A DNA stretch of 64,000 bases. It comes from Candidatus Sulfotelmatobacter sp. (GTDB lineage: Bacteria > Acidobacteriota > Terriglobia > Terriglobales > Acidobacteriaceae). Positions 52,449 through 57,834 of this stretch are shown here, piece after piece (position 1 is the first letter of the stretch; the number at the start of each line of letters is the position of its first letter). The notes below the pieces were generated by a model. The model was given only the letters and a program-made list of their open reading frames with translations. It was not told the origin of the DNA and did no database searches. Location of the stretch: the NCBI GenBank assembly GCA_025462865.1, contig JAOAPI010000099.1, positions 1 through 64,000 on the forward strand, given 5' to 3'. The position numbers were made by a program, and so were the translations under genes.

Positions 52449-53363
52449 ATGGATTTCGATCAGCTCATCACATTTTTGGAAGTTGCCCGTCAAGGCAGCT
52501 TCTCACGCGCCGGAGAGAAAGTCTTCCGTTCGCAATCGGCCGTTAGCGCGCAGATTCGCCAACTCGAACAGGAGTACGGCGACCGTCTGCTTGATCGCTC
52601 GGGCAAGACCGTCAAGCTAACTCCTGCCGGTCAAGTCTTTCACGACTACGCGGTGCGCATGAAAAAGCTGCGCGACGAATCGCTCGTGGCCGTAGCCGAC
52701 CATGGCCACACGCCGCGCGGAACGCTGCTGGTGGGTGCCAACGAAGCCACCTGTCTTTACGTTCTGCCTGAAGTTTTCGGGGAATACTGCCGCAAATATC
52801 CCGACGTGCAGATCAGCATCTATCGCAATTTCACTTATAAGATCGTCGAGAAGATAGAGAATGGCTCTCTCGATGTGGGTATAGTTAGTCTTCCAGTGCA
52901 GTCTCCCAGTTTGAAGGTACAACCCATATTTCGCGACCGTTTGATGCTGATGGTGAGCCCCAAGAATCCTCTCGCCAAGCTGAAATCGGCGCACATCAGC
53001 GAGGTGGTAAAACATCCTCTGCTGCTGCCGAAGACCGGCCACACCCGCAGGCTGCTGGATAAACTGTTTCGCGAATACAACACCGAGCTTAAGGTCAGGA
53101 TGGAACTACCCAGCATTGGAATGATCAAGAGCTTCGTTGCCGCGGACCTGGGCATCTCACTGATCAGCGCGTCCTTCGCGCGGGATGAAGTTTCCGCAGG
53201 CAGGGTAAAACTGGTGGAACTGGAAGGGGCTGAACTGTGGCGTGAACTCGGACTCGCATATCGTCGCGACCGCACTCTATCCGTTGCCACCAAGACATTC
53301 GTGACAGTGGTGCGCCAGCTCTCAGAGCTTTTGAAGAAAACGGATGCGCCGAGTCACAAGTAA
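52449..53363 (+). CDS. LysR-family transcriptional regulator
   Basis: The product is 304 residues. The winged HTH (about 1-62) is typical: FLEVARQGSFSRAGEKVFRS, SQSAVSAQIRQLEQEYGDRL and LDRSGKTVKLTPAG. The substrate-binding domain (about 90-300) starts at GTLLVGANEATCLYVLP. It lies 66 bp after gltB on the same strand and is convergent with the sulfur operon, with 7 bp between stops. It could therefore be a GltC-like regulator of glutamate synthase or a CysB/CysL-like regulator of sulfite reduction; position alone cannot decide. No Shine-Dalgarno is seen. Confidence 0.92.
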   Translation: MDFDQLITFLEVARQGSFSRAGEKVFRSQSAVSAQIRQLEQEYGDRLLDRSGKTVKLTPAGQVFHDYAVRMKKLRDESLVAVADHGHTPRGTLLVGANEATCLYVLPEVFGEYCRKYPDVQISIYRNFTYKIVEKIENGSLDVGIVSLPVQSPSLKVQPIFRDRLMLMVSPKNPLAKLKSAHISEVVKHPLLLPKTGHTRRLLDKLFREYNTELKVRMELPSIGMIKSFVAADLGISLISASFARDEVSAGRVKLVELEGAELWRELGLAYRRDRTLSVATKTFVTVVRQLSELLKKTDAPSHK

Positions 53364-53370
53364 AAGCGCC

Positions 53371-54087
53371 TTAGGCATCCGCTTCCGGTGGAACAGTTTG
53401 TGGTTGAATAATGTGCAGTCCGCATTCCGTCTTCGATGATCCGGACCAACGCCCCGCCCTCGGGTCTTCTCCAAGCCTCACTGCCCGCGTGCAATGAGTG
53501 CAACCGATGCTTGGATAGCTGCGCTCATGCAGCACATTGAAAGGCACGTCATGGTCGCGAATGTACTGCCAGACCTGTTTAGAATTCCAGTCGGCGATCG
53601 GATTAATCTTCACTAACCCGAATTTCTCGTCCCACTCGACTTTGCCCGCGCCGGCTCGCGCCGCGGTTTGATCGCGCCGTATGCTTGTGATCCAGGCCCG
53701 TAGTTCATCCAGTTTGCGTCGCAGGGGCTCAACTTTGCGAAGGTTGCAGCATTGGTCGGGGTTTCGTTGCCAGAGCGCCGGACCGTGGACTCGTTCCTGC
53801 TCCTCCGGCGATGCCAGGGGATAGACTTTTTCAATCGCGATGCCGTATCTCTGCTCGACTTGGTCCATCAGATTGTAGGTTTCTGGAAAAAGAAATTCAG
53901 TGTCCAGCGTGAACAACCGAAAATTCTTGCGCACCCGGGACGCAATATCGATCAGCGCCATCCCTTCAGCTCCGAATGCGGAGGAGATCGCCACCGTGTT
54001 TCCGAATCTCTCGAAAGCCCACTCGAGCACCCGTTCAGGCTTCCAAGACTCCGCAGCGATCTGTAGTTCTCCAACTTCGTCTCTCAT
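53371..54087 (-). CDS. cysH: Assimilatory adenylylsulfate (APS) reductase
   Basis: The product is 238 residues. It reduces APS (or PAPS) to sulfite with thioredoxin. The 4Fe-4S cysteines that mark the APS-reducing branch are all present: Cys113-Cys114 in DQCCNLRKV and Cys196/Cys199 in GCTHC. The catalytic Cys222 is in KTECGLH. The P-loop-like region reads SSAFGAEGM, followed by FTLDTEFLFPETY. Its ATG overlaps the end of the SUMT gene by four bases, making it the last gene of the operon. No ATP sulfurylase gene is in the window. Confidence 0.94.
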   Translation of the reverse strand: MRDEVGELQIAAESWKPERVLEWAFERFGNTVAISSAFGAEGMALIDIASRVRKNFRLFTLDTEFLFPETYNLMDQVEQRYGIAIEKVYPLASPEEQERVHGPALWQRNPDQCCNLRKVEPLRRKLDELRAWITSIRRDQTAARAGAGKVEWDEKFGLVKINPIADWNSKQVWQYIRDHDVPFNVLHERSYPSIGCTHCTRAVRLGEDPRAGRWSGSSKTECGLHIIQPQTVPPEADA

Positions 54088-54914
54088 GCCAAGGGCTCCT
54101 CATTTGGCCGCACACTTTCAGCCGGCAAAAACTGAGTTTGCGAGAATCCGGTTCCGAGGTCGTGGTTCAGCACCGGAACGGTCACGATGTCTTCAGCTAA
54201 ATTCTGAGCGGCAAGCTTTACTACCTCACCTACGACCAGCAAGGTTGGAGATGCCAGCCGGGGTGCCCCATGCAGATCTGAAACAGTAGTGCGATATATC
54301 CTCTGCTTGGAAGTTGTCGCACGAGAAATAACTGCGCAAGGAGTGTCGTCCGCAAATCCCGCGCGCATGAGCCTGCCGGAAATTTCGCGGTAATTCTGGC
54401 CTGGCATATAAATCACAAGAGTGGCCTGCTCCGCCGCAAACTTGCTCCATTCGGCGTCATCGTTACCAACGGCCCGATTGCCTGTCGCCAGCACGAGCGT
54501 CGACGATGCATGCCGATGCGTAAGCGGAATGCCAGCTGCCGCCGCCGCTCCCAGTGCCGATGTCACGCCAGGAACGATCTCGTATTCAATGTTCGATCGT
54601 CGCAACGCTTCGATTTCTTCGCCGGCCCGACCGAAAATCAGGGGATCCCCGCTTTTCAAGCGAACTACTTGCCGTCCTGAAGACGCCAACGTCACCATCA
54701 GAAAGTTAATTTCCTCCTGCCGGACAGTTTTCGTCCCGCAACGCTTGCCCACGTTCCGGATTTCAGCAGCCGGCGAAATCAATTGCAGGATTTCCGGAGA
54801 AACCAGATCGTCGTGCAGCACCACATCGGCTCCGCGCAACAACCGCAGAGCTTTCACTGTAAGTAATTCGGGATCACCCGGCCCCGCTCCGACCAAATAC
54901 ACCTTGCCATTCAT
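54084..54914 (-). CDS. cobA: Uroporphyrinogen-III C-methyltransferase (SUMT)
   Basis: The product is 276 residues. It methylates uroporphyrinogen III twice with SAM to give precorrin-2, the siroheme precursor. Motifs of the tetrapyrrole methylase family are present: VYLVGAGPGDPELLTVKAL, VVLHDDLVSPEIL, VRLKSGDPLIFGRAGEE, VPGVTSALGAAAAAGIPLTHR and PTLLVVGEVV. It overlaps the upstream precorrin-2 dehydrogenase gene and the downstream cysH gene by four bases each. The last 30 residues beyond the domain have no recognised role. Siroheme made here feeds the reductase encoded first in the operon. Confidence 0.93.
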   Translation of the reverse strand: MNGKVYLVGAGPGDPELLTVKALRLLRGADVVLHDDLVSPEILQLISPAAEIRNVGKRCGTKTVRQEEINFLMVTLASSGRQVVRLKSGDPLIFGRAGEEIEALRRSNIEYEIVPGVTSALGAAAAAGIPLTHRHASSTLVLATGNRAVGNDDAEWSKFAAEQATLVIYMPGQNYREISGRLMRAGFADDTPCAVISRATTSKQRIYRTTVSDLHGAPRLASPTLLVVGEVVKLAAQNLAEDIVTVPVLNHDLGTGFSQTQFLPAESVRPNEEPLA

Positions 54915-55555
54915 ACAGTTACGCTCCTGTCATTTCTTGCCGACTCTTTTTCCGATTCTTCCTTTGACTGTTTTGCCAACGCGGCGTGCAGCGCCTCACG
55001 GCTCGCCAGCGAAAGCAGCAAATCGCGTTTGCGTTGCTTGTCAAGATCGCTGGCCAGCACAAGCCGCCGGGTCTCTCCCAGCTCCGCAACCCACTGGGCA
55101 TATCCCGGACCAAACTGCCGCTCCAACTGTTGTCGAAGCTTTTGAGCCAAGGATGGGCTCTGTCCGCTCGTCGAGATTGCAATCTGTAGATCGCCTCGTC
55201 GCACCACCGCTGGATAATAAAAGTCGCAGTACTCGGGATCGTCCACCACGTTGCAGAGCACTCCTCGCCGCTGTGCTTCCCGATAAATCAAACCGTTGAG
55301 GGAACGAGACGCCGTGGCCACGATTGCCAAAAACGTTCCATCAAGATCGGACTCGGCGAATGCGCGTATCTCAAGGGTGACATTGCCGGCCTTCGCCCAC
55401 GCGTGTACTGTCCCCGTCGCATCCAGAGCAACCACGTGGAGGCGTGCTCCGGTGTCGATGAGCCCTCCGATCTTGGGCTCTCCAATCTTTCCGGCTCCGA
55501 CCACAAGGCATCGTCTGCCTTCCAGTTTCATAAACATTGGGAACAAGCTGCTCAC
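54911..55555 (-). CDS. Precorrin-2 dehydrogenase / sirohydrochlorin ferrochelatase (CysG N-terminal / Met8 type)
   Basis: The product is 214 residues from GTG 55555, after AGGAGAAATA. It oxidises precorrin-2 with NAD and can insert iron to give siroheme. The Rossmann motif reads CLVVGAGKIGEPKIGGLIDTG; further marks are NVVDDPEYCDFYYPAVVRRG and ISTSGQSPSLAQKLRQQLE. In E. coli CysG this domain is fused to SUMT; here the two are separate overlapping genes. It starts 17 bp after the reductase stop. A highly charged tail (KEESEKESARN) is unusual but short. Confidence 0.92.
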   Translation of the reverse strand: MSSLFPMFMKLEGRRCLVVGAGKIGEPKIGGLIDTGARLHVVALDATGTVHAWAKAGNVTLEIRAFAESDLDGTFLAIVATASRSLNGLIYREAQRRGVLCNVVDDPEYCDFYYPAVVRRGDLQIAISTSGQSPSLAQKLRQQLERQFGPGYAQWVAELGETRRLVLASDLDKQRKRDLLLSLASREALHAALAKQSKEESEKESARNDRSVTV

Positions 55556-55572: not shown

Positions 55573-57276
55573 TCAGCCTTCTACTCCACTCGGCACGCGT
55601 CCCTCGGGCAGATCGCGAGCGACTGCCTCCACGAACTCTCCTGCCAGAAAATTCCGCAGGTCGGTGTCGCTGTGACGCGAGAAAAACTGCCGCAGATTTT
55701 CACCGGTCGTGCCGTCCGCCAGATACCTGCGCAGCAACCGCTCGATGGCCTCAGGAACCTCAGTGGCCGCGCAGCGATAGCCCACAGGCCTTGCGATTGA
55801 CTGATGCAGACCCAGCGCACCGCCCAGGCAGAAGTAATACGCATCTACCATCTGCCCGTTGACCTTGATCTTCTTGCCTTCGATTCCAATGTCGGCGATC
55901 CAGTGCTGCCCGCAACTGTTGGGGCAGCCGGTGACGTGCAGTTTTAAGTGCTGATCGAACCCAGGCAGACGCTCTTCCAATTCCTCCACCAGCCAGCGCG
56001 AAAAACTTTTCGTCTCGGTGATGGCGAGTTTGCAGAATTCCGTACCGCTGCAGGCGACTGCGCCGCGCCAAAAAGGAGATCCGCTCACCGGGAGACCAAT
56101 CGCGCCCAACTCCTTTGCAAGGTCGTCCGCCTGGAGACGAGGCACGTTGACGATCAGCAGGTTTTGCATGTTGGTGGTGCGCAGTTCGCCGCTGGCAAAG
56201 CGATCGGCCAGATCGGCAGCGGCGTGCATTTGCTCAGGCGTAATCCGGCCACGCAGAACCGTTGCCCCTACATAGCAGTACCCGGATTGTTTCTGCGGAT
56301 GAATTCCGATGTGATCGCGGTAGACGTCTGCGGGCGGCTGCTCCGGTTCGGCAGGGTCCAGCTGAAATCCCAGCCGGCGTTCCAACTCCGATTGAAAATG
56401 CTCAACCGTCCAGCCGTGCCTGAGGAAGAGAAACTTCAGCCGCGCCCGTTCGCGGTGTTCGCGCAATTGATCGGAGTCCCGAAATAACTCGGCCACTCCC
56501 CTGATCACTGGAAGGACCTGGTTCCAGCGAACGAAGGCATTCAGGGGCGCGCCCAAGTAGGGCTCGGTAGAAAGTCCGCCACCCACACGCAAGGCAAAAC
56601 CAATCTCAGGTTTCCCTCGAACCACGCGCTGCATCGCAGTCAGTCCCACATCGTTGATCTCCGGATACGGGCACCAGACGCGGCATCCCGTGATGGAAAT
56701 CTTGAACTTGCGCGGCAAGTTGTAGAACTCGGTATTCCCTGCCAGCATGCGATCCGCTTCCAGCGCCAGAGACGAAGCATCGCAGATCTCATCCGCGTCT
56801 ACCCCGGCTACTGGGCAGCCAGTAATGTTGCGCGTAACATCGCCGCAAGACCCTGTCGTGTTAAGTCCGACGCGCCATAGCTCCTCCAATACTTCCGGAA
56901 GCGCCTCAATCGTGACCCAGTGCAGTTGAATATTCTGCCGCACCGTGAGGTCGGCGGTGCTCCGCGCGTAACGCTGTGTGAGAGTAGCGATGGTTCGCAG
57001 TTGGTCGGATCGCAACAGGCCGTTGGGAATTCGAATTCGCAGCATGAAGAACGGCAATGCCTTGCCCTGACCATCCTTGCCGCCGACTACTCCAGCGCCA
57101 TCGCCCTGCGTGTAAACTCCCCACCAGCGGAAGTAGGTCCCGATCCACTCCGGCGGAATCGAGTCGAACCCCTCTCGTGCAAATCGGCGAATCTCGGCCA
57201 ACCCGTCCCACGGGTTCATGGCCCGTTTCAGGCGTTCTGACTTTTGAGCTTTGGTTTCTTTGACAGCATTTTCCAT
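55573..57276 (-). CDS. Ferredoxin-type sulfite (or nitrite) reductase, sirohaem 4Fe-4S
   Basis: The product is 567 residues from ATG 57276. Two reductase half-repeats are visible, with RQNIQLHWVTIE and GDVTRNITGCPVAGVD in the first. The coupled cluster/sirohaem ligands are Cys409 and Cys415 (ACSGTEFC) and Cys451 and Cys455 (TGCPNSCGQHW). It reduces sulfite to sulfide, or nitrite to ammonia, taking electrons from ferredoxin; no flavoprotein partner (CysJ) is present. The siroheme and cysH genes behind it argue for sulfite. A leader ORF and terminator lie directly in front, suggesting attenuation. Co-transcribed genes follow at 17 bp and with 4-base overlaps. Confidence 0.93.
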   Translation of the reverse strand: MENAVKETKAQKSERLKRAMNPWDGLAEIRRFAREGFDSIPPEWIGTYFRWWGVYTQGDGAGVVGGKDGQGKALPFFMLRIRIPNGLLRSDQLRTIATLTQRYARSTADLTVRQNIQLHWVTIEALPEVLEELWRVGLNTTGSCGDVTRNITGCPVAGVDADEICDASSLALEADRMLAGNTEFYNLPRKFKISITGCRVWCPYPEINDVGLTAMQRVVRGKPEIGFALRVGGGLSTEPYLGAPLNAFVRWNQVLPVIRGVAELFRDSDQLREHRERARLKFLFLRHGWTVEHFQSELERRLGFQLDPAEPEQPPADVYRDHIGIHPQKQSGYCYVGATVLRGRITPEQMHAAADLADRFASGELRTTNMQNLLIVNVPRLQADDLAKELGAIGLPVSGSPFWRGAVACSGTEFCKLAITETKSFSRWLVEELEERLPGFDQHLKLHVTGCPNSCGQHWIADIGIEGKKIKVNGQMVDAYYFCLGGALGLHQSIARPVGYRCAATEVPEAIERLLRRYLADGTTGENLRQFFSRHSDTDLRNFLAGEFVEAVARDLPEGRVPSGVEG

Positions 57277-57290
57277 AACGATTTCCGCGC

Positions 57291-57330
57291 AAAAAGAAAA
57301 ACCCACCGCCAGATGCTCTCTGGCGGTGGG
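57291..57330 (-). terminator. Attenuator terminator ahead of the sulfite reductase gene
   Basis: On the minus strand CCCACCGCCAGA (57330-57319) pairs perfectly with TCTGGCGGTGGG (57313-57302) across loop GAGCA, followed by TTTTTCTTTTT. It ends 15 bp before the ATG of the reductase, so it would stop transcription before the operon unless prevented. Confidence 0.93.
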
Positions 57331-57431
57331 CGATAAGTGCTGACGATGCTATGAAATTTCTAAGTCAGCAGCCTCCCTGCGCCAGAGCACACGCATGCAC
57401 AACAACAACATGCACATATACAAATCTGGCG
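57318..57431 (-). promoter_or_regulatory. Competing RNA segments of a transcription attenuator
   Basis: Three of four segments lie here on the minus strand; the fourth is the 3' arm of the terminator. Segment 1 is CGCCAGA (57431-57425), just before the leader ORF. Segment 2 is CTCTGGCG (57387-57380), inside it. Segment 3 is CGCCAGAG (57325-57318), the 5' arm of the terminator. Segment 4 is TCTGGCG (57313-57307). Pairing 1:2 leaves 3:4 free to terminate. Pairing 2:3 blocks termination. This is the classical layout for translation-coupled attenuation. Confidence 0.75.
57349..57417 (-). CDS. Sulfur-amino-acid-rich leader peptide (attenuator ORF)
   Basis: A 22-codon ORF starts at ATG 57417 and stops at TAG 57351-57349. 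It begins MCMLLLCM: two Cys and three Met among its first eight residues. The rest reads RVLWRREAADLEIS. It lies about 40 nt after the predicted transcription start and ends 18 bp before the terminator stem. Segment 2 of the attenuator is inside codons 11-13. Ribosomes waiting for Cys-tRNA (or Met) near codon 2 would cover segment 1 and free segment 2. No strong Shine-Dalgarno is seen, which is the weak point. Confidence 0.65.
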   Translation of the reverse strand: MCMLLLCMRVLWRREAADLEIS

Positions 57432-57461
57432 AGGATTGCTGAAATTAGTCATACTTTTTAG

Positions 57462-57490
57462 ATAGTAGGTTGGTCCATCGAGCGAGTCAA
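57462..57490 (-). promoter_or_regulatory. Promoter of the sulfur-assimilation operon
   Basis: On the minus strand TTGACT (57490-57485) and TACTAT (57467-57462) are separated by exactly 17 bp. Transcription would start near 57455, giving a leader RNA of about 180 nt before the reductase ATG. Confidence 0.65.
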
Positions 57491-57585
57491 CCACTTTTCT
57501 ACAGGCTTGGATGCATACTTTCGATCAGATGCATCAAAATTTTGCGATGCTCTTCCCGGCAGTAGTTACTCCGACCACGGTTCGA

Positions 57586-57834
57586 TCAAGCAGCTTTCGT
57601 GATCTTCGCCCTCAAACCTTGAAGAACGGTGGCCGGCAGCCGGAGGACTCGAACCTTCAAATCCTTCTTCGTGGTTACACGGACGGCGATGCCATCCGCA
57701 TCTGGAAACGGATCTGAAACCACTTCAAATTCCTCTCCATAAAGGCGGACGCGCTCAGACGCCGCATATCCGAGGTGCTTGACGCGCTCACAGATTTCCG
57801 AAACCAAAGAAGACTCAGAATTATGACTGGTCAT
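57586..57834 (-). CDS. Small protein of unknown function
   Basis: The product is 82 residues from ATG 57834. It has an N-terminal helix (SEICERVKHLGYAASERVRL) and a beta-rich centre (YGEEFEVVSDPFPDADGIAVRV, in part) with basic residues toward the end (TKKDLKVRVLRLP). Charge and composition are those of a real soluble protein. TATAAT lies nine bases upstream of the ATG, suggesting a near-leaderless mRNA. I recognise no family. It is upstream of, and on the same strand as, the sulfur operon, but separated from it by that operon's own promoter. Confidence 0.6.
   Translation of the reverse strand: MTSHNSESSLVSEICERVKHLGYAASERVRLYGEEFEVVSDPFPDADGIAVRVTTKKDLKVRVLRLPATVLQGLRAKITKAA

Follow-up and report, generated by a model that had tools for sequence, protein, structure and literature searches.

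The stretch ahead of the sulfite reductase-siroheme-CysH operon of Candidatus Sulfotelmatobacter sp. carries a promoter-like site, a short Cys-rich ORF and a hairpin, which raises the question of whether these parts together form a switch that reads the supply of cysteine. The original prediction, made on the 64,000-nt stretch of DNA analysed here (the window), answered with an attenuator that follows the logic of the trp and his leaders. Of the components of that logic, a leader with Cys codons, a predicted intrinsic terminator, an antiterminator that excludes it (Table 1) and an effect of ribosome position (in silico) are found at this locus. We put the probability that the element is a Cys-specific ribosome-mediated transcription attenuator at about 90%, with conservation of the leader and a recoding test carrying the main weight of the case.

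The predicted promoter TTGACT-N17-TACTAT and the short leader ORF are present on the minus strand at the places given for them. The leader ATG follows the -10 box by 9 nt, and 29 nt separate the stop codon from the 12-bp hairpin. On both strands of the window, the leader is the sole stop-to-stop frame of 10-70 amino acids with at least 7 Cys in 12 codons, and 50 dinucleotide shuffles of the entire window reached a maximum of 6. The leader peptide matched no Pfam family. Downstream, the hemoprotein encoded by the first structural gene has as its best NCBIfam match PRK09566, a ferredoxin-nitrite reductase, under the cut-off of that model. Because CysH lies in the operon and a Cys leader precedes it, we argue for reading this NirA-like protein as an assimilatory sulfite reductase and not as a nitrite reductase, a choice to which the element lends support.

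Table 1. Features of the leader region and the operon, in coordinates of the window.
Feature	Position	Strand	Basis or remark
Promoter-like site, TTGACT (57490-57485)-N17-TACTAT (57467-57462)	57462-57490	minus	read from sequence
Leader ORF, 30 codons, MTNFSNPRQICICACCCCACVCSGAGRLLT, 8 Cys; ATG 57452, stop TAG 57362-57360	57360-57452	minus	
Cys tract, codons 11-22, 8 Cys codons (6 UGU, 2 UGC); putative sensing element	57387-57422	minus	
Segment 1 (UCAGCA 57442-57437 plus UCCUCGCCAGA 57435-57425), predicted 5' arm of the 1:2 protector helix	57425-57442	minus	folding only
Segment 2 (CUCUGGCG-CA-GGGAGG-C-UGCUGAC), partner of segment 1 or segment 3	57364-57387	minus	
Segment 3 (GUCAGCACUU...CCC..CGCCAGAG), antiterminator 3' arm, overlaps terminator 5' arm	57318-57344	minus	
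Terminator hairpin 3:4, CCCACCGCCAGA/TCTGGCGGTGGG, 12 bp without mismatch, loop GAGCA	57302-57330	minus	
T tract TTTTTCTTTTT	57291-57301	minus	T-rich in every row of genus alignment A1
First structural gene, siroheme sulfite/nitrite-reductase family hemoprotein	55573-57276	minus	Pfam NIR_SIR and NIR_SIR_ferr
Siroheme synthase N-terminal-type dehydrogenase	54911-55555	minus	TIGR01470 over cut-off
Uroporphyrinogen-III C-methyltransferase	54084-54914	minus	TIGR01469 over cut-off
APS/PAPS reductase CysH	53371-54087	minus	NF002537 and TIGR00434 over cut-off

The four short segments on which the original prediction was built lie on the minus strand at CGCCAGA 57431-57425, CTCTGGCG 57387-57380, CGCCAGAG 57325-57318 and TCTGGCG 57313-57307. 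The perfect 12-bp terminator was likewise confirmed, and 14 nt lie between the end of its T tract and the reductase ATG (57276). The proposed 1:2, 2:3 and 3:4 pairings exist in folding, but the lengths first given for them were too short: 1:2 comprises UCAGCA as well as UCCUCGCCAGA, and 2:3 is lengthened by GGGAGG and UGCUGAC, the antiterminator amounting to 21 pairs in the source genome. In the predicted folds, antiterminator and terminator both need segment 3, so that each excludes the other. The 200-nt region as a whole folds better than its shuffles (z -3.87), with 1 of 200 equally good.

Conservation was examined in the genus, where the set comprised 37 genomes (own included), 33 of them with the reductase, which in one is split over two contigs. 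One locus, on a contig that begins 50 nt upstream of the reductase, was dropped, leaving 32 readable loci. Leaders with at least 3 Cys in 12 codons occur at 32/32 and with at least 4 at 30/32, and the terminator caller gives -15 kcal/mol or better for all 32; these and the following counts come from related sequences and are not independent. A leader-profile match at E<1e-7 was obtained in 37 of 45 genus genomes. Among the eight others, G001, G012, G025 and G032 have no reductase gene, the sequences of G021 and G005 are truncated close to the leader, and the rest are G062 and G063.

Named loci extend the picture. Eighty were collected: 57 readable ones labelled Acidobacteriota, 18 with the labels Rokubacteria, Methylomirabilota or Actinomycetota, and 5 unreadable ones (four short, one masked). 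Over all sets of loci, L024, L036, L069, L087 (labelled Eremiobacterota), L090 and L109 were dropped for too little upstream DNA. At the 57 Acidobacteriota-labelled loci, at least 3 Cys were counted in 55, at least 4 in 51, and at least 3 together with a terminator of -15 kcal/mol or better in 54. These loci overlap the genus set, and among the 39 with a leader end absent from it, 35 have at least 4 Cys and 34 have both at least 4 Cys and a terminator. The leader is absent or doubtful at L103 and L105, and L079 has 4 Cys with only a weak hairpin. L050, a seeming counterexample with a terminator and no leader, was ruled out, the leader stretch being masked with N. The sister loci L014 and L016 keep only 3 Cys codons in the leader, with tail and terminator unchanged.

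The 18 loci labelled Rokubacteria, Methylomirabilota or Actinomycetota served as controls: none has at least 4 Cys and one has 3. Half of them (9/18) also have a called hairpin of -15 kcal/mol or better before the gene, so a terminator by itself cannot tell the groups apart; what separates them is the leader and not the hairpin. Three Cys codons alone say little in their turn, because single shuffles of upstream regions reach 3-5. Six of the Rokubacteria- or Methylomirabilota-labelled loci (L083, L100, L106, L107, L108 and L117) show hairpins of -25 to -34 kcal/mol with T-rich 3' flanks shortly before the reductase and no Cys leader. These may be terminators of upstream units or another type of control.

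Covariation was assessed in a genus alignment of 30 leaders (A1), which does without L029 and L032 on account of a missing start region, or a contig-end cut plus frame-shift. In L029 (G031:C297) the stretch carrying the -10 box and leader start, present in its close relative L027, is lacking, through deletion or an assembly fault. Compensatory changes had been expected in all four segments. They are clear in the terminator, where 94.9% of cells are paired, 3 pairs show double changes (2/500 shuffles do as well) and the score is reached by 0/500 shuffles and no slid control. The antiterminator is weakly supported: 81.7% of cells are paired (5/500 shuffles; slid controls 34-52%), the 5 double-change pairs are matched by 183/500 shuffles, and the score of 0.086 by 14/500, with one slid control at 0.088. 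Covariation does not support the 1:2 protector at all (76.3% paired, slid controls 41-53%, 273/500 shuffles with pairing as high), and since none is seen there, it is folding that suggests this helix. From the genus alignment RNAalifold recovered the terminator but neither the antiterminator nor the complete 1:2 helix, a partial recovery as expected because the folds are alternatives. The CTGGC columns of segment 2 are invariant or nearly so in A1, and one subclade, viewed by eye in the alignment, suggests a shifted 1:2 register with CUUCGCGC facing GCGCGGGG. The original prediction had named absence of the leader and of compensatory stem changes in relatives as grounds for giving it up; the leader stands at 32/32 genus loci and the terminator covaries.

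Pairing beside the conserved core was scored over 11 offsets in 57 distinct leaders with CTGGC/GCCAG anchors, 15 anchorless loci being dropped. Outside the genus, it exceeded swaps at -1 (23/30, p 0.009), -2 (21/30, p 0.028) and -4 (23/30, p 0.001), values uncorrected for kinship and for the number of offsets; the other eight offsets gave no excess over swaps. At 4 of 5 loci the compensated base beside the core also pairs within the terminator. In 29/71, the best helix between tail and segment 3 is better than that of at least 95% of shuffled tails.

A phylum draw of 297 genomes contained the reductase at E<=1e-90 in 36; own and G013 were set aside, and 35 upstream regions were taken from 34 genomes, G339 giving two. 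Within the same family, 18/26 regions have at least 4 Cys and 23/26 at least 3, all 23 with hairpin and T tract, although 18 of the 23 fall short of -15 kcal/mol in hairpin strength and at L211 the hairpin overlaps the leader. The remaining three, L217, L218 and L220, are same-family reductase genes with neither leader nor terminator; two belong to genus g24 and one is the second copy in G339. Outside the family, leader and hairpin were found at 1/9 loci (L230), and 8/9 are without a leader or doubtful. At L230 (G094:C178), of a more distant family, the reductase contains one in-frame TGA and is preceded by a Cys-rich leader (MNMYDFRTLRCCCSCPCLL...) and by a hairpin of -26 kcal/mol with T tract. 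Ten order- and class-level loci were mixed, with 3-7 Cys at eight of family f2 (one with no hairpin, one with a weak one) and two doubtful at class level. The leader profile matched 10/247 genomes of the phylum at E<=0.01, strongly only in two of the same genus. It is too specific for divergent leaders, which were therefore sought upstream of orthologous genes.

The start of the leader lies close to its predicted promoter. By a simple rule, 59 of 93 distinct leaders have a -35/-10 pair, and in 58 of the 59 the first in-frame start follows the -10 box by 5-13 nt, mostly by 7 or 9-11 nt. The rule counts from the first start lying 4 nt or more past the -10 box and is biased to short distances; it is the tightness of the spread that matters. 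The other 34/93 have no promoter by the rule, which in some lies beyond the stretch searched. Under a looser rule, the distance is 10 nt in L012 and 23 nt in L022, and L022 is also the one genus leader in 30 preceded by an SD-like tetramer. Because the start lies 5-13 nt past the -10 box, the mRNA is probably leaderless or nearly so.

Codon use sets the leader apart from neighbouring genes. Cys codons in the 30 genus leaders are TGT 148 : TGC 80, against TGT 7 : TGC 37 in eight genes of the window (Fisher 2e-9, on related sequences), and 161 : 87 in a wider leader set. Codons 15 and 16 are TGT in 25/25 of the A1 genus leaders (30 in all) that have the standard length of 30 codons and a stop. 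The UGU bias may give higher sensitivity, or may merely keep the tract unstructured.

The effect of ribosome position was modelled with a footprint that reaches 16 nt upstream and 12 nt downstream from the first base of the A-site codon. With L001 folded up to the terminator loop, an A site at Cys codon 11, 15 or 18 leads to 2:3, and one at the stop codon leads to 1:2 behind the ribosome. The claim that stalling at the first Cys codon promotes 2:3 is borne out in silico, antiterminator pairing exceeding the stop state by more than 0.1 in 29/30 genus leaders. That a ribosome at the stop favours the terminator also holds in footprint folding, but not by the route proposed. The stop codon starts 18 nt downstream of CTCTGGCG, which this footprint leaves uncovered; the ribosome covers GGGAGGCUGCUGAC of the antiterminator, and CTCTGGCG is instead taken by segment 1. 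Mean antiterminator pairing over the 30 leaders is 0.69 at the first Cys codon, 0.33 at the stop and 0.47 ribosome-free, with pairing at Cys above ribosome-free in 17/30. In 13 of the 30, the leader in the window among them (0.76 vs 0.77), preference for the antiterminator is about equally strong in the ribosome-free and the stalled transcript, and a low uninduced level would therefore need translation or the order of folding.

Recoding separated the RNA from its peptide. Forty synonymous recodings, peptide unchanged, were made for each of 30 genus and 41 other leaders, chosen for at least 4 Cys (or genus membership), a called terminator and a pickable start; the 41 include at least two named copies of genus loci (L052, L074). 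Pairing in the Cys state fell from 0.69 to 0.41 in the genus set, and to 0.49 in the others, and the stop state stayed nearly constant (0.33 vs 0.34 and 0.42 vs 0.40, respectively). The native Cys-minus-stop difference is greater than 0.1 in 29/30 genus and 36/41 other leaders, and beats at least 90% of recodings in only 21/30 and 15/41. Since synonymous recoding lowers pairing in the Cys state, selection appears, in these models, to act on the RNA over and above the encoded peptide, an effect that is clear in the mean and not at every locus.

From the sequence parts and how they are conserved, from codon use and from folding predictions, we infer a mechanism in which the leader is translated from a leaderless start and termination in vivo answers to cysteine. 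Transcription would begin a few bases ahead of the leader AUG, with ribosome loading at or near the 5' end. When Cys-tRNA is scarce, the ribosome would stall in the Cys codons and mask segment 1, whereupon segment 2 could pair with segment 3, the terminator would be blocked and the sulfite reductase-siroheme-CysH operon transcribed. With ample Cys-tRNA, the ribosome would reach the stop codon and cover the inner half of segment 2, and segment 1 would pair with the outer half. Segment 3 would then be free for segment 4, and transcription would end at the T tract.

Other accounts of the same parts must be weighed against attenuation of transcription. The Cys leader might gate the ribosome-binding site of the structural gene at the level of translation, in the mycobacterial style, with an incidental hairpin. 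A Cys run and a near-leaderless start are indeed common to the mycobacterial elements, but here the covarying hairpin and its T tract end at 57291 and leave the start region of the reductase (57290-57274) outside, and the strong terminator is called at every readable genus locus; we regard this account as improbable. We give no more credit to the idea that the nascent peptide is itself the sensor, metal binding or oxidation stalling the ribosome regardless of Cys-tRNA supply. Cys-rich peptides are able to bind metal, and the tract contains CxC and CCCC. However, the spacing and order of Cys vary widely (CCCCCC in L034, CICCCC in L085, CCxxxCCxC in L089), a pattern that fits codons better than a binding site, and the downstream genes, partly on general knowledge, provide sulfide for cysteine.

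Direct sensing of a small molecule or tRNA by a riboswitch or T-box deserves a thought because sulfur genes of Firmicutes are often under S-box or T-box control. Yet an Rfam scan of positions 57180-57620 with E up to 10 was negative, and a conserved ORF fills most of the region; the whole window yielded only two tRNAs at gathering level. Such a sensor is very improbable. It is scarcely credible, finally, that an unregulated terminator of the upstream unit stands beside a chance Cys-rich frame. Intrinsic terminators are common, as the hairpins at half the control loci illustrate, but the density of Cys against shuffles, the conservation of the leader, the promoter-like site directly before it and the drop in antiterminator pairing on recoding all speak against coincidence.

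A Cys-specific transcription attenuator has both familiar and unfamiliar traits. Ribosome-mediated transcription attenuators govern the enterobacterial trp, his, leu, ilv and thr operons. The element shares with them a leader ORF of regulatory codons, the 2:3 and 3:4 pairings, in folding also a 1:2 pairing, and a predicted intrinsic terminator before the first structural gene. It differs in the amino acid apparently sensed, cysteine, in a start ~5-13 nt from the -10 box with little or no 5' UTR, in an antiterminator that extends inward across the stop-codon region, and in its occurrence in Acidobacteriota.

Polycysteine leaderless short ORFs of mycobacteria were reportedly described by Canestrari et al. 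in 2020. According to the accessible parts of other papers, they act by translation attenuation (PMC13236596, PMC9031893), and six were analysed in M. tuberculosis (PMC9094748). Like them, the acidobacterial leader is a short ORF with runs of Cys codons, probably leaderless, before genes of cysteine metabolism. As far as those excerpts go, the outputs differ, translation attenuation there and a conserved intrinsic terminator here, and so do copy numbers, several loci there and one strong copy per genome here. The mycobacterial type is marked by sequestration of the ribosome-binding site with no intrinsic terminator; here a conserved terminator and T tract precede the start region of the reductase. 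With a terminator as the output that is conserved, the element falls outside the mycobacterial translational kind.

Cys leader peptides upstream of cys genes, including cbs in B. longum, were reported in Actinobacteria by Seliverstov et al. 2005 (PMC1262725), and in the portion of that paper available no conserved terminator hairpins accompany them and Rho is suggested. On that portion, both groups have runs of Cys codons upstream of cys genes, and only the acidobacterial one has the terminator. The leuA and ilv leader peptides of Streptomyces lividans are, in the sections available, leaderless, as is probably the case here, and carry codons of the regulated amino acids, which are branched-chain, the leucine-rich leader having no typical terminator (PMC8079986). 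That part of the paper, with a partial table, contains no Cys leader. Naville and Gautheret 2010 remark, as far as the accessible text shows, that attenuators of acidobacteria have no functions assigned to them. The literature searched, which largely comprised openly accessible text and partial sources, yielded no account of a Cys attenuator combined with an intrinsic terminator. For one acidobacterial attenuator, the sequences now point to a likely signal (cysteine), mechanism and target operon.

On balance, we lean towards a broader reading: a clade-wide acidobacterial Cys sensor that couples a leaderless poly-Cys ORF to a three-state intrinsic terminator, with 5'-end loading and a run of the less-used UGU setting timing and sensitivity, and that would be the transcriptional equivalent, separately evolved, of the polycysteine attenuators by which mycobacteria control translation. 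The element is kept over dozens of genomes of different species, some assembled in one or few contigs, and makes a case for studying attenuation on leaderless mRNA.

Other copies were sought in the own genome, where TGYTGYTGYTGY has 68 matches and the reversed pattern 32. A filter for short Cys-rich ORFs around the TGYTGYTGYTGY matches passed 12 rows, one being the leader itself and two the same place; three of the 12 were viewed by eye with their surroundings, and none resembled a leader plus terminator. With the leader profile, the own genome showed a single strong match, and none of the 45 genus genomes had two at E<1e-7. The own genome thus offers no evidence for a multi-operon network, although divergent leaders could escape the profile.

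Two further observations concern the surroundings of the operon. A LysR-family regulator at 52449-53363 (plus strand) faces it and reached no curated cut-off among the 25 of 56 NCBIfam matches listed. Upstream of the -35 box, at 57510-57525 (minus strand), lies a block like ATCGAAAnTATnCATC that recurs, by eye, in many genus loci and is perhaps a site for an activator or an UP element.
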